Shown piece after piece: positions 42,495 through 47,050 of a DNA stretch of 64,000 nt. The position numbers and the translations under genes were made by a program. The notes under the pieces are model-generated. The model searched no databases. It was not told where the DNA came from and saw nothing but the letters and a program-made list of their open reading frames with translations. The stretch's first letter is position 1. Each line of letters begins with the position of its first letter. The DNA comes from Labilithrix sp. (lineage in GTDB: Bacteria > Myxococcota_A > Polyangia > Polyangiales > Polyangiaceae), in the NCBI GenBank assembly GCA_019637155.1, contig JAHBWE010000001.1, forward strand, positions 248,001 through 312,000, given 5' to 3'.

Positions 42495-42587
42495 CTGCGG
42501 GGGTCCGGGGGCGTCGTAGCGCGCGCCCAGCGCGCGCGAAGAAACCCCCGGCGGGGAGAGCTTGAGAGGGGCAGAGCCCCTCTCAAA
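42495..42587. repeat. GC-rich dispersed repeat, copy B2, with a perfect 11-bp hairpin
   Basis: Terminal hairpin TTGAGAGGGGC-AGA-GCCCCTCTCAA at 42562-42586. Its second pair is T-A where copy A has C-G, a compensating change. The minus-strand phosphatase gene takes its TGA stop (42583-42585) from this arm. Confidence 0.85.
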
Positions 42588-43392
42588 CAAGATGAAGCAG
42601 CACGGCGGTCACGTTGTCGGCGCCGACCTGTTCGTCGGCGGCTTGGACGAGCGCGTCGCAGCGGGACGAGAGGTCCTCCTCGTCGTTCGAGATGATGGCG
42701 CGGATCGTGTAGTCGTCGAGCTGGCGCGTGATGCCGTCGGAGCAGAGGAGGTAGAGGTCGTTCGCGAGGAGCGGGAAGTAGCTCACCGAGACGTCGAGGT
42801 CGGGACGAATGCCGACGATGCGCGTCACCACGTTCGGGTGCTGCTGATCGATCTCCGCCGCCTGATCGAGCGTCGCGCCGGTGCGCCACATCTCGAGCGC
42901 GAGCACGTCGTCCATGCTGAGACGCCGGAGCTCGCCGCCCGTCTCGTCGGCCGACGCGTACGTCGCCGGATCGTAGCCGCGGCGGTAGCGATAGAGCCGG
43001 CAGTCACCGGCCGACACCGAGATGAGCCACGGCGGCGCGAGGCGGAGGCCGATGAGCGCGCAGCCCATCCCGACGCTGTCGCCGACCGCGTTCTGCAGGA
43101 TGCGCGTGTTCGCCTCGAGCACCGCGACCGCGAGCGGATCCGCGCCCGGCGGCGCGAGGCCGCCCTGCGACATGCCCGCTTCGCGGCCCGAGAAGTAGCG
43201 GCGGAAGCTCGTCACCGCGAGGTCCGCCGCCATGCGCCCCGACGACTCGCCGCCCCCGCCGTCCGCGACGATGAACACGCTCGCGCTCTCGATCGCGCCC
43301 CACGCGTCTTCGTTGATCTCTCGGTGCCGCCCCGTGACCGACGCGCCCGCGTAGTCGATGACGGTGCGCGTGCCGGGCATGCGGTACGGCAT
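42583..43392 (-). CDS. PP2C-family serine/threonine phosphatase
   Basis: A 269-residue PPM phosphatase. Metal-site motifs are INEDAWG, FIVADGGGGESSG, GMGCALIGL, SAGDCRLYRY, LCSDGI and GADNVTAVLL. No membrane segment. It would remove phosphate from Ser/Thr set by the kinases of this window (the one at 47862 is nearest). It lies 52 bases from, and divergent to, the PH-like/TrmY/FHA operon. The stop comes from the repeat arm. Internal Met at 43380 is an alternative start. Confidence 0.92.
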   Translation of the reverse strand: MPYRMPGTRTVIDYAGASVTGRHREINEDAWGAIESASVFIVADGGGGESSGRMAADLAVTSFRRYFSGREAGMSQGGLAPPGADPLAVAVLEANTRILQNAVGDSVGMGCALIGLRLAPPWLISVSAGDCRLYRYRRGYDPATYASADETGGELRRLSMDDVLALEMWRTGATLDQAAEIDQQHPNVVTRIVGIRPDLDVSVSYFPLLANDLYLLCSDGITRQLDDYTIRAIISNDEEDLSSRCDALVQAADEQVGADNVTAVLLHLV

Positions 43393-43444
43393 GGGCCTAC
43401 GATCCTACGCGAATCGGAGCGGTCTCGGGGGATATCCTCGGAGG

Positions 43445-44623
43445 ATGATCCGCTTCGGCGCCACCGACGTCCGCGTTCGACGCCGTCCGCGCGTCGCGTG
43501 GATCGTGGCGCTGGCGCTCGCGGTGCCGGCGCTCCTCGCGGCGGTGGGGCTCGAGCTCGCCGCCGGTCTGCTCCTGCTCGGCGGGCTCTTCCTCTTCTTC
43601 ATGCTCCCCGCCGTGCTGTACGAGGACTCGCTCCTCGGCGAGCGAAACGTCCCGGTGCTGTCGGCCGATCGCGCGGGGATCGCGTTCGGGAAGCGCCTCG
43701 TCCTCCGTCGCGAGCGCATCGACGCGGCCTTCGTCGAGCCGCTCGCGGACGGCGGGCGTCAGGTGCACCTCTGGGGCAAGCGCGAGCGCGACGACCTCGT
43801 GCTCTTCCTCGACGACGAGAAGCGGGCCGCGCTCCTCCTCGACGCGCTCGGCCTCACCCCCGACGCGCACGCCGCGCGCTTCGTCGTCGAGAGCGCGCCG
43901 CTTCGATCGCGCGCGAGGCAACGGCTCGCGGCCGCGCTGCGGATGGCGGGCGGCTTCGCGATCGCCGGCGCGGTCGTGTGGGCGATGGGTCACGTGCCGC
44001 TCGCGGGCTTCTCGCTCGTGCCGCTGCTCTGGCTCTACGGCGTGCTCGTTCGCTTCCTGCGCCGTCACCGCCGCGTCACGCTCGGCAGCGACGCGCTCGT
44101 CGTGGAGGAGGAGATCCCGTTCGCCGCGATCGCGAAGGTGAGCGCGGTGGGCGATCGCGACGCGCACGTGGAGCGCATCGCGGGCGATCGGATCGTGCTG
44201 CGGTTCGACGGCCGCGAGGCGAAGGACAAGCGGGCGACGTTCATCGAGCGCCTCCAGCAGAGCGTCGCGCGCGCGGCGGGGGCGACCCACCTCGGCGCGC
44301 TCCTCGCGCCGGGAGGGCGCAGCTCGGAGGCGTGGCTCGCGGAGCTGCGGCGCATGAGCGGCGGCGAGGGATACCGCGGCCCGAGCCTGCCGCCGGAGGA
44401 GCTGTGGCGCGTCGTCCTGCACCCCGGCGCGGAGGCGGGGGCGCGGGCCGGCGCGCTCGCGGCGCTCGTCGCCGGCTTCGACGAGGACGACCGCGTCCGC
44501 GTGGGGACGATGAGCGAGAGCACGGTGCGGGTCGATCTCCGCGCCGCGCTCGCCGCCGCCGCGCGCGAAGGCGCGACCGACGACGCGGTGGTGACGGCGT
44601 TCCTCGGCGCGAGCGAGCGATGA
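43445..44623 (+). CDS. Membrane protein with PH-like halves, paralogue of 17268-18137
   Basis: From ATG 43445, 392 residues. Layout: a membrane pair (about 15-60), a beta-rich stretch (LSADRAGIAFGKRLVLRRERIDAAFVEPL), a second membrane pair (about 170-205), a second beta-rich stretch (LGSDALVVEEEIPFAAIAKVSAV), then an Arg/Ala-rich C-terminus with RMSGGEGYRGPSLPPEELWRVV. An in-frame start 29 codons upstream would overlap the phosphatase gene. Function unknown. It overlaps trmY by ATGA and leads a four-gene coupled operon. Confidence 0.8.
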   Translation: MIRFGATDVRVRRRPRVAWIVALALAVPALLAAVGLELAAGLLLLGGLFLFFMLPAVLYEDSLLGERNVPVLSADRAGIAFGKRLVLRRERIDAAFVEPLADGGRQVHLWGKRERDDLVLFLDDEKRAALLLDALGLTPDAHAARFVVESAPLRSRARQRLAAALRMAGGFAIAGAVVWAMGHVPLAGFSLVPLLWLYGVLVRFLRRHRRVTLGSDALVVEEEIPFAAIAKVSAVGDRDAHVERIAGDRIVLRFDGREAKDKRATFIERLQQSVARAAGATHLGALLAPGGRSSEAWLAELRRMSGGEGYRGPSLPPEELWRVVLHPGAEAGARAGALAALVAGFDEDDRVRVGTMSESTVRVDLRAALAAAAREGATDDAVVTAFLGASER

Positions 44624-45234
44624 CGAGGAGCTTCGTCGTCGTCGGACAGAAGGCGATCGCGAGCGACGACTTCCTGCTCGACGATCTGCCGGGGACGAGC
44701 GGGCGCATCGACGTGCTCGTGCGCTGCTTGCGCGCGACGCTCCTCTCGTCGCACGGCCTCCGCCGCGACTGCATCGCGTACCTCGTGCTCCTCGGCGGAC
44801 CGCGCGCGCCCCGCGTCGTCCGCGTCGACGGCGCGACGGCGCAGTTCATCCGGCCCGACGAGCGCGCCCTCGGCGGGATGGTGAAGAAGGTGCTCGCGAC
44901 GCACGACGACGACGACCGCGAGGGCTTCGTCCTCGTGAAGCCCGGCGTCGCCGTCGCGCGCGGCGGGATCGACGCCGTCCTCGCCGACGTCGCCGGCGCG
45001 GCGCTCTTCGTGCTCGCGGAGGAGGCGGAGGACATCCGCGCGGCGCCGATCGATCCCGCGTCCGACGTCGTCTTCGTCGCGGGCGATCACGTCGGCCTCC
45101 CCGACGACGTGCGCGCGCGGCTCGACGCCGCCGGCGCGCGTCCGGTCTCGCTCGGCCCCGTCAGCGTGCACGCCGACGACGCGATCGCGATTGCGATGAA
45201 CGAGCTGGATCGGCGAGCTATCCTGACGCCATGA
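44620..45234 (+). CDS. trmY: TrmY-like SPOUT methyltransferase (tRNA pseudouridine-54 N1-methyltransferase family)
   Basis: A 204-residue protein with ATG overlapping the previous stop. It matches archaeal TrmY closely: SFVVVGQKAIASDDFLLDDLPGTSGRIDVL at the N-terminus, SHGLRRDC, LVLLGG, RVDGATAQFIRPDERALGGM, and the knot end DHVGLPDDV, SLGPVSVHADDAIAIAMNELDR. TrmY uses S-adenosylmethionine to methylate N1 of pseudouridine 54 in archaeal tRNA. Bacteria usually carry m5U at position 54, so the bacterial substrate is unclear. It is translationally linked to a membrane protein and a lipoprotein, not to RNA genes. Confidence 0.88.
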   Translation: MTRSFVVVGQKAIASDDFLLDDLPGTSGRIDVLVRCLRATLLSSHGLRRDCIAYLVLLGGPRAPRVVRVDGATAQFIRPDERALGGMVKKVLATHDDDDREGFVLVKPGVAVARGGIDAVLADVAGAALFVLAEEAEDIRAAPIDPASDVVFVAGDHVGLPDDVRARLDAAGARPVSLGPVSVHADDAIAIAMNELDRRAILTP

Positions 45235-45743
45235 CGCCCGCGCGCACGCTCGTCCTCGTGGGCGCGATCGCGCTCGTGGGCTGTCTGTTCCCGTCCTTCG
45301 ACGACTTGAAGAGCGACACCAAGACGACGCCGCGACCGGACGCGGGCAGCGACGGCGACGACGATGACGGCGACGACGACGACGCCACGCCGCCCGACGC
45401 CGGCGGGACGAAGCTGCCCGACGGCGGCGACTTCCCCGCGCGGCACATCGACTGCAACGACGTCTGTCCGATCGCGGACGCGCTCTGCTGCACGACGGTG
45501 GGCGGCGCGAGCTGCCAGCCGCTCGAGGCCGAGACCTTCTGCCCGGTCCAGGGCGGCGAGGTCTTCAAGTGCGACGGCGACGAGGACTGCGACCCGGGAC
45601 AGGTATGCTGCTACGCCGAGAAGAGAGGGACGTGCAGCGCGACGTGCGCGGGGCAGCAGCTCTGTCACGGCTCGCCCGGCTCGTGCCCTCCCGGTAAGAC
45701 TTGCACCGGCACGATCGCCGGCCATTTCAAGGCCTGCCAATGA
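45231..45743 (+). CDS. Cys-rich lipoprotein
   Basis: A 170-residue protein with ATG overlapping the TrmY stop. Lipobox LVGC gives Cys18. An Asp/Gly-rich acidic linker (GSDGDDDDGDDDD) runs to about 65. The C-terminal about 105 residues contain 16 cysteines in disulphide-like pairs (CNDVCPIADALCC, CDGDEDCDPGQVCCY, CSATCAGQQLC). Likely outside the inner membrane. Function unknown. Coupled to the FHA protein downstream. Confidence 0.8.
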   Translation: MTPARTLVLVGAIALVGCLFPSFDDLKSDTKTTPRPDAGSDGDDDDGDDDDATPPDAGGTKLPDGGDFPARHIDCNDVCPIADALCCTTVGGASCQPLEAETFCPVQGGEVFKCDGDEDCDPGQVCCYAEKRGTCSATCAGQQLCHGSPGSCPPGKTCTGTIAGHFKACQ

Positions 45744-47050
45744 CGCGCGAAGAAGAGACCCGCAGCCTGATCAACCGTGCGCCGCGCGATCCGGACGCGC
45801 CGCGGCCGTCGTTCTCCCTCACCGTCGTCTCGGGCGCCGATCGCGGGCTCGTCGTCGAGCTCGACGGCGCGACCGCGGCGTCGCGCACGCTCGTCGGCGC
45901 CTCGCCCGCGTGCACGTTGCGGCTGACCGATCCGCTCGTCTCGCGCCGTCACGCCGCGTTCGAGGTCGAGGCGGACGGCCTCCGCGTGCAGGACCTCGGC
46001 TCGAAGAACGGCACCGTCGTGAACGGCCTCCGCGTCACCGACGCGCTCCTCGCCGGCGGCGAGGTCGTGCGCGTCGGCGCGACCATGATCAAGGCGGAGC
46101 GCCTCGCGCGCGTCTCGACGACGAAGACGCCGACCGCGATGGCGTTCGGCCGCGTCGTCGGCGGGAGCCCGGAGATGCGTCGGCTCTATCCGCTCTTGCA
46201 GTCGCTCGCGGCGTCGACCGATCCGGTGCTGATCGAAGGAGAGACCGGCACCGGCAAGGAGCTCCTCGCGGAGGCGCTCCACGAGAAGGGCCCGCGCTCG
46301 GCGGGGCCGTTCGTGGTGTTCGACTGCGCGTCGCGGACCGGCGGGAGCGCGATCGCGGCGCTCTTCGGGGTGGAGGGCGGCGCGGCGGGCGTGTTCGAGC
46401 AAGCGCGCGGCGGCACGCTCCTCCTCGACGAGGTCGCGGAGCTCGAGCCCGAGGCGCAGGCCGGCCTCCTCGACGCGCTCGCGCAGGGTCGCATCCTCCG
46501 CGAGGGCGCGCGCGACTTCGCGCCGATCGACGTGCGCCTCCTCGTCGCCACGCGCCGCGATCTCGACGCGGAGGTGCAGGAGGGACGCTTCCGCGAGGAC
46601 GTCCTCGCGTGGCTCGCGCCTCATCGCGTCGAGCTCCCGCCGCTGCGGAAGCGGCAGGGCGACGTCGGCCTCCTCGCGCGCCACTTCTGGCGCGTGATCG
46701 GCGGCGGCGACACGCTGCCCGCCGACTTCGCCGCGCGGCTCGAGACGTACGCGTGGCCCGGCAACGTCCGCGAGCTCGCGAACATGGTCGCGCGCCGCTT
46801 CGCGAGCGGCCAGGACGAGGCGGAGGCGATCCCGCACGCGGGCACCGACGCGACGCTCGGCGCCGCGCTCGAGAAGATCCTCGAGAGCGACATGCCGTTC
46901 TCGAGCGCCCGCTCCGCCGCCCTCGCCGAGTTCGAGAAGCGCTACGTCGCGCGCGTGCTCGCCCGCCACGGCGGCCACGTCGGCCGCGCCGCCGCCGCGT
47001 CGGGCATCGCGCGCCGCTACTTCCAGGTCCTGCGCGGTCGGAGCCGCTGA
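45740..47050 (+). CDS. FHA domain - AAA+ sigma-54-activator-like protein without GAFTGA
   Basis: A 436-residue protein with ATG overlapping the previous stop. An FHA domain (about 30-115; SRRHAAF and GSKNGTVVNG) binds phosphothreonine. The AAA+ part has Walker A GETGTGKE (167-174), Walker B GTLLLDE (225-231), RFRED and GNVREL (341-346). Where activators have the sigma-54-contacting GAFTGA loop, this has LFGVEGGAAGVFEQ (208-221). The C-terminus resembles a Fis-type helix-turn-helix (about 402-432). It may bind DNA without activating sigma-54, or use an altered contact. Convergent with the kinase/PEGA operon, 5 bases apart. Confidence 0.9.
   Translation: MTREEETRSLINRAPRDPDAPRPSFSLTVVSGADRGLVVELDGATAASRTLVGASPACTLRLTDPLVSRRHAAFEVEADGLRVQDLGSKNGTVVNGLRVTDALLAGGEVVRVGATMIKAERLARVSTTKTPTAMAFGRVVGGSPEMRRLYPLLQSLAASTDPVLIEGETGTGKELLAEALHEKGPRSAGPFVVFDCASRTGGSAIAALFGVEGGAAGVFEQARGGTLLLDEVAELEPEAQAGLLDALAQGRILREGARDFAPIDVRLLVATRRDLDAEVQEGRFREDVLAWLAPHRVELPPLRKRQGDVGLLARHFWRVIGGGDTLPADFAARLETYAWPGNVRELANMVARRFASGQDEAEAIPHAGTDATLGAALEKILESDMPFSSARSAALAEFEKRYVARVLARHGGHVGRAAAASGIARRYFQVLRGRSR

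Follow-up and report, generated by a model that had tools for sequence, protein, structure and literature searches.

The 204-amino-acid protein encoded on the forward strand at 44620–45234 of the window (the whole 64,000-nucleotide stretch of Labilithrix DNA that was analysed) is an archaeal-type member of the TrmY family of SPOUT methyltransferases, as judged by profile, by comparison with PDB sequences and by predicted structure. In the bacterial clade to which it belongs, the TrmY signature residues are retained, TrmFO, the m5U54 enzyme, is kept and Pus10 is missing; either the site of modification or the synthase must therefore be new. The reading we favour, with about even confidence, is that this is a working SAM-dependent Psi-N1 methyltransferase of euryarchaeal origin acting on a pseudouridine of tRNA other than Psi54. 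Candidates for its partner enzymes are provided by a gene cassette found in relatives, so that the role of bacterial COG1901 proteins becomes directly testable.

Pfam PF04013 aligns with residues 3–199 of the 204 (6.7e-49, 166.7 bits), a full-length match that bears out the preliminary description, in which the protein was said to resemble TrmY over its length. The NCBIfam TrmY model PRK02135 returns 1e-52 and 178.5 bits, 4.5 below its equivalog cut-off of 183. The closest PDB sequences are AF_1056 (2qmm, 5.2e-32) and MJ1640 (3aia, 3.7e-31), with VCA1059 of Vibrio (2qwv) far behind at 4e-13. An AlphaFold2 model with a mean pLDDT of 95.2, for which the input was 44 sequences (the window's and fetched relatives), matches 2qmm with a Z of 30.7 (1.3 Å, 194 aligned residues), 3ai9 with 29.4 and VCA1059 with 24.9, and the next family by fold is Nep1/Emg1 at about 15. 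Placement in another SPOUT family by structure had been named as the outcome that would overturn the assignment, and the comparison came out as TrmY. RsmE, the m3U1498 enzyme, was considered and rejected (19.2 bits against a cut-off of 210; best Z 12.6 versus 30.7). The gene is single copy in the window's genome.

Two known groups invite comparison. With archaeal TrmY (MJ1640, AF_1056; COG1901/DUF358), which forms m1Psi54 in tRNA, the window's protein shares full-length homology, a Z of about 29–31 and the signature residues, but it resides in a bacterial host that has TrmFO and no Pus10, and it has other gene partners. With VCA1059, a bacterial COG1901 protein, it shares fold and sequence homology, but VCA1059 is without the TrmY signature. 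A grouping with proteins of the VCA1059 type was rejected, as the window's protein scores 115 bits to AF_1056 versus 53 to VCA1059, and VCA1059 lies outside in the tree described below. A 2007 paper on COG1901 mentions a few bacterial members, perhaps gained from archaea (PMC1829167), and COG1901 is elsewhere entered under ‘Bacterial unknown methylase’ (PMC5041015). TrmY is found only in archaea according to a review (PMC5372735), and a literature search yielded no report on a myxobacterial TrmY among the papers listed.

Of the 317 Polyangia genomes searched with the PF04013 profile, 42 have a match, all of them in the window's order, that of Labilithrix and the Polyangiaceae, where the distribution is patchy (42/183); none was found in 134 genomes from the other orders of the class. 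A phylum-wide sample of 377 genomes contains 11 matches, again all in this order. The phylogeny of bacterial TrmY called for in the preliminary description was run, and the resulting tree, built from 91 rows, places the Polyangia proteins in a single clade (100/100). The neighbours of this clade are the Methanotrichaceae (97/78), and its stem is long, at 1.05 changes per column; VCA1059 branches far outside on one long branch. The archaea of this tree were found via peptide patterns (80 of 149 relatives), with haloarchaea and others under-sampled, so that the placement beside Methanotrichaceae holds within a limited archaeal sampling; the bootstrap is not fully settled and there are long branches in L261, VCA1059 and L039. 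A second tree made after removal of outliers has no outgroup and sets the Polyangia and a Methanotrichaceae-rich group on the two sides of one branch. We read this pattern as one probable old transfer, in which an ancestor within the order would have gained trmY from a euryarchaeon, nearest to Methanotrichaceae among those sampled, followed by patchy loss. Carriage by phage or plasmid was rejected, since tblastn searches of 50,697 phage and 72,556 plasmid records gave no match.

The TrmY alignment has 40 rows out of 44 matches in the 42 genomes. The partial genes of G189 and G288 and the second gene of G273 were left out; at locus L069 of G262 the gene finder called no TrmY, and the protein of this genome enters the tree as L261. 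One Polyangia bin, G215, contains besides a normal Polyangia TrmY (contig C295) a second one, L039 (G215:C273:6141-6692), on a short contig that is probably a contaminant; L039 shares only 35% identity with the window's protein and falls with an archaeal row in the tree. Methanosaeta sp. PtaB.Bin018 has a pair of closely similar TrmY genes (L230, L231), each on its own contig.

Within the window's genus, four genomes (G254, G259, G260 and G261) offer a lead on function: in them TrmY lies in a cassette between a Methyltransf_32 protein, here called c5, and a TruC-like synthase of the RluA family, with 4-base overlaps at both the c5/TrmY and the TrmY/TruC junctions. Two DTW genes follow, directly in three of the genomes and further off in G260. 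The TruC-like protein retains HRLDR and scores 186–189 bits with the TruC profile, below the equivalog cut-off of 328. In G259 and G254, DGTW and N-terminal cysteines are present in the second DTW protein; the first has a strong Pfam match, and a pattern search gave no clear DTW motif in it. TruC makes Psi65, as mapped in Vibrio (PMC12588516), and DTW proteins are described as transferring acp to RNA, the products being acp3U47 for the tRNA of E. coli and m1acp3Psi for rRNA (PMC7026641). The cassette partners belong to the families of the gammaproteobacterial TruC (Psi65) and TapT/YfiP (acp3U47), both families of tRNA-modifying enzymes. The cassette is a single arrangement in one branch of one genus, and parts of it recur elsewhere: c5 is coupled to DTW in G288 and G238, and TruC adjoins DTW in 15 of 30 TruC loci, including that of the window's own genome (four of the 15 are cassettes, and one cassette has no DTW gene within its stretch). 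In the window's genome c5 (G000:C1:611760-612413), TruC–DTW (contig C5 near 231 kb) and TrmFO (C10) all lie apart from TrmY. TrmY would on this evidence be a member of a loose module for modifying the T-arm and elbow of tRNA, together with TruC, DTW acp-transferases and the Methyltransf_32 enzyme.

The same three kinds of enzyme occur in the Nep1/Emg1–Tsr3 route, in which a pseudouridine is made, methylated at N1 and given an acp group by a DTW-type enzyme, yielding m1acp3Psi in 18S rRNA (PMC7026641). The cassette differs in that its methyltransferase is of another family, its DTW proteins are bacterial and its substrate is likely to be tRNA, not rRNA. It is conceivable, at long odds, that it encodes a bacterial assembly line in which a TruC-like enzyme makes Psi, TrmY converts this to m1Psi and DTW to m1acp3Psi in tRNA, with a further methyl from the Methyltransf_32 enzyme; such a pathway would be the bacterial tRNA counterpart of the eukaryotic snR35–Nep1–Tsr3 route of 18S rRNA. 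Nep1 is counted as one of two known Psi-N1 methylating enzymes (PMC7026641), the other being, as we read it, TrmY. The kinship with Nep1, an rRNA Psi-N1 enzyme and the nearest fold after TrmY itself, also raises the prospect that the Polyangia protein has moved to another RNA, the pseudouridine that it methylates at N1 belonging to rRNA, tmRNA or some other stable RNA, and the long stem branch suggests a changed use. We regard such a move as unlikely, given that the TrmY signature residues are retained and that the genes coupled to TrmY in relatives, TruC and DTW, are of tRNA-modifying families.

Co-occurrence extends the link to c5 beyond the cassette. At E <= 1e-48, c5 is present in 26 of the 42 genomes with TrmY (and absent from 16) against 25 of the 275 others, an odds ratio of 16; shuffles within families lead one to expect 11.0 ± 2.3 genomes with both, and none of 5000 reaches 26. 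Counted by genus in six families, 13 genera have both, eight TrmY only, seven c5 only and 39 neither (p 3e-4). This threshold drops seven weaker c5 matches (G210, G266, G312, G313, G025, G026 and G037), and the presence of TruC and c5, like the family and genus labels, was compiled by eye. Joint presence of TrmY and c5 may be commoner in large genomes; for TruC, put to the same test, the odds ratio is only 2.3 (31/42 versus 151/275), a weak association equalled or exceeded in 236 of 5000 within-family shuffles. The only Pfam match of c5 is Methyltransf_32. Among PDB sequences it has no relative, and its fold is that of a generic class-I methyltransferase (best Z 15.3, to 1wy7). It is a candidate new RNA methyltransferase. 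A representative is encoded at L134:6743-7417 on the reverse strand, a conserved protein co-occurring with TrmY and having no close solved relative. A link to Trm13, suggested by a paralogue with a sub-cut-off match (PF05206, 7.8e-4), is not claimed.

In archaea, Psi54 is supplied to TrmY by Pus10 (PMC9508554, PMC7912444), and m1Psi54 is presented as an archaeal modification (PMC7668247). A search for a Pus10-like enzyme had been proposed from the sequence; when run, the Pus10 model (TIGR01213), which has matches in four archaeal controls, gave none in any of the 42 genomes with TrmY, the window's included. TrmFO is found in 39 of the 42, again including the window's, and in all 26 good assemblies (completeness 90% or more, contamination 5% or less); the three genomes with no match are 72–86% complete. 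The preliminary description was therefore right to call the target doubtful in a bacterium. Because Pus10 is absent and TrmFO is kept, m1Psi54 is an unlikely product of the window's enzyme, which would function without Pus10 and beside an intact TrmFO on a substrate that is most likely not Psi54. A rather improbable alternative is that m1Psi54 remains the product of TrmY, in all tRNAs or some of them, once an unrecognised bacterial synthase has made Psi54. In its favour are the residues conserved with archaeal TrmY, and U54–U55 is kept in 29 of the 30 distinct tRNAs that were read outside a tRNA array in the window's genome (70 tRNA matches). Furthermore, the Thermococcales also carry TrmY-family genes (L268–L280, mostly Thermococcus) and their U54 is reported as m5s2U (PMC7668247), so that both would fit in one cell; the target of their TrmY is, by the same token, likewise in doubt. 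The alternative is opposed by the 26 good assemblies with TrmFO intact, by the missing Pus10 and by the scarcity of any extra TruB. TruB (PF01509) is as a rule single per genome among the 80 genomes searched, with none found in four; the other cases with two matches seem to reflect a single gene in halves or fragments. A second TruB-type synthase was found in two of these genomes only, G139 (C49:687-1067) and G141 (C58:119634-120023), both of family f3 and both with TrmY; as a source of Psi54 it was rejected for this reason.

Two features of the tRNAs of the window's genome are recorded here. In a tRNA-Lys(TTT) gene (L078, at G000:C5:39227-39299, the locus being assigned by output order) the T-loop reads ATCGTTC, A replacing the first U, and this tRNA should therefore escape any U54 enzyme. 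The array mentioned earlier comprises 35 tRNA genes for most amino acids on one strand within 9 kb (L137:2197-11253; about 26–35 kb of G000:C31), has G for U at position 55 in eight of the 35 and looks like the array of a mobile element or phage.

On the favoured reading, a Psi-N1 methyltransferase of tRNA acting away from position 54, an ordinary bacterial synthase would first place Psi in the tRNA and TrmY would then methylate its N1. The candidate sites would be Psi55, made by the nearly always present TruB, and Psi65, made by TruC, the operon partner in four relatives. Psi55 fits the near-universal occurrence of TruB and the preference of archaeal TrmY for the T-arm (PMC9508554). Psi65 agrees with the cassette, though not with genomes from which TruC is absent; 11 of the 42 genomes with TrmY have no TruC match at E <= 1e-40, so TruC cannot be the sole source of substrate. 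With this and its weak association, TruC was rejected as an obligate substrate maker.

The residues themselves were compared between 39 Polyangia rows, L039 of G215 being excluded, and 49 archaeal TrmY rows. Invariant or nearly so in both sets are, among others, R29, D31, R35, S44, H45, R48, PDER at 79–82, K90, GDH at 155–157 and D197; VCA1059 has R29H, D31E, R35H and H45Q at these positions and no PDER. Three swaps run throughout the Polyangia, R for the archaeal K at 65, R for N at 78 and D for H at 187. From these alignments the chemistry of TrmY is probably kept in Polyangia, and its specificity may have drifted, given the three consistent swaps and the long stem. There is a slim chance that the chemistry has instead been lost or changed, either to another base or to no needed function, as the patchy occurrence (42/317) and the clade-wide swaps might suggest; against this stand the retained signature and the conservation of a clade that is divergent yet has a mean column identity of 51%. 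Loss of the C-terminal cysteine, where archaeal HADHC becomes HADDA in Polyangia, was rejected as a sign of lost function, as Thermococcus rows are also without it.

Upstream of TrmY in the window lies a gene for a membrane protein of 421 amino acids (43358–44623, forward strand), with only a sub-threshold match to DUF2244 and not conserved beside TrmY, and downstream are genes on the same strand for a Cys-rich predicted lipoprotein of 170 amino acids (45231–45743; lipobox LVGC read from the sequence, no Pfam match) and for a regulator of 436 amino acids in which Pfam recognizes FHA, sigma-54 AAA+ and Fis-type HTH domains (45740–47050). A gene for a PP2C-type phosphatase, identified by profile matches (42583–43392, reverse strand), diverges from the membrane protein gene and is given as context only. 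The preliminary description had reported ATGA links among TrmY and these neighbours, and there are indeed three such 4-base overlaps, at the membrane protein/TrmY, TrmY/lipoprotein and lipoprotein/regulator junctions; its suggestion of an envelope and signalling operon fared less well. Neighbourhoods were compared at 40 TrmY loci in 39 further genomes (TrmY called in 39), with genes called by a codon-usage script and neighbours clustered by BLAST; 76 of 78 neighbours were used, two short ones beside L041 being excluded. The window's flanking pair occurs in none of the 40 stretches, nor were relatives of the lipoprotein found at these loci. The envelope and signalling context is incidental, because no TrmY locus of the relatives keeps the arrangement. 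That TrmY serves the adjoining operon is thus, for all the ATGA couplings, very improbable, since the arrangement is seen at no other locus and in the close relatives L032 and L034 TrmY follows an upstream gap of its own (150–180 bases, behind opposite-strand genes). The FHA/sigma-54 gene was rejected as a partner: at 4 of the 40 loci TrmY has a member of its cluster, c4, no more than a few genes away, but such genes are very numerous in myxobacteria, and this proximity is not counted as evidence. The pair of phosphatase and membrane protein genes occurs near TrmY in one genome, G251, with two opposite-strand genes between.
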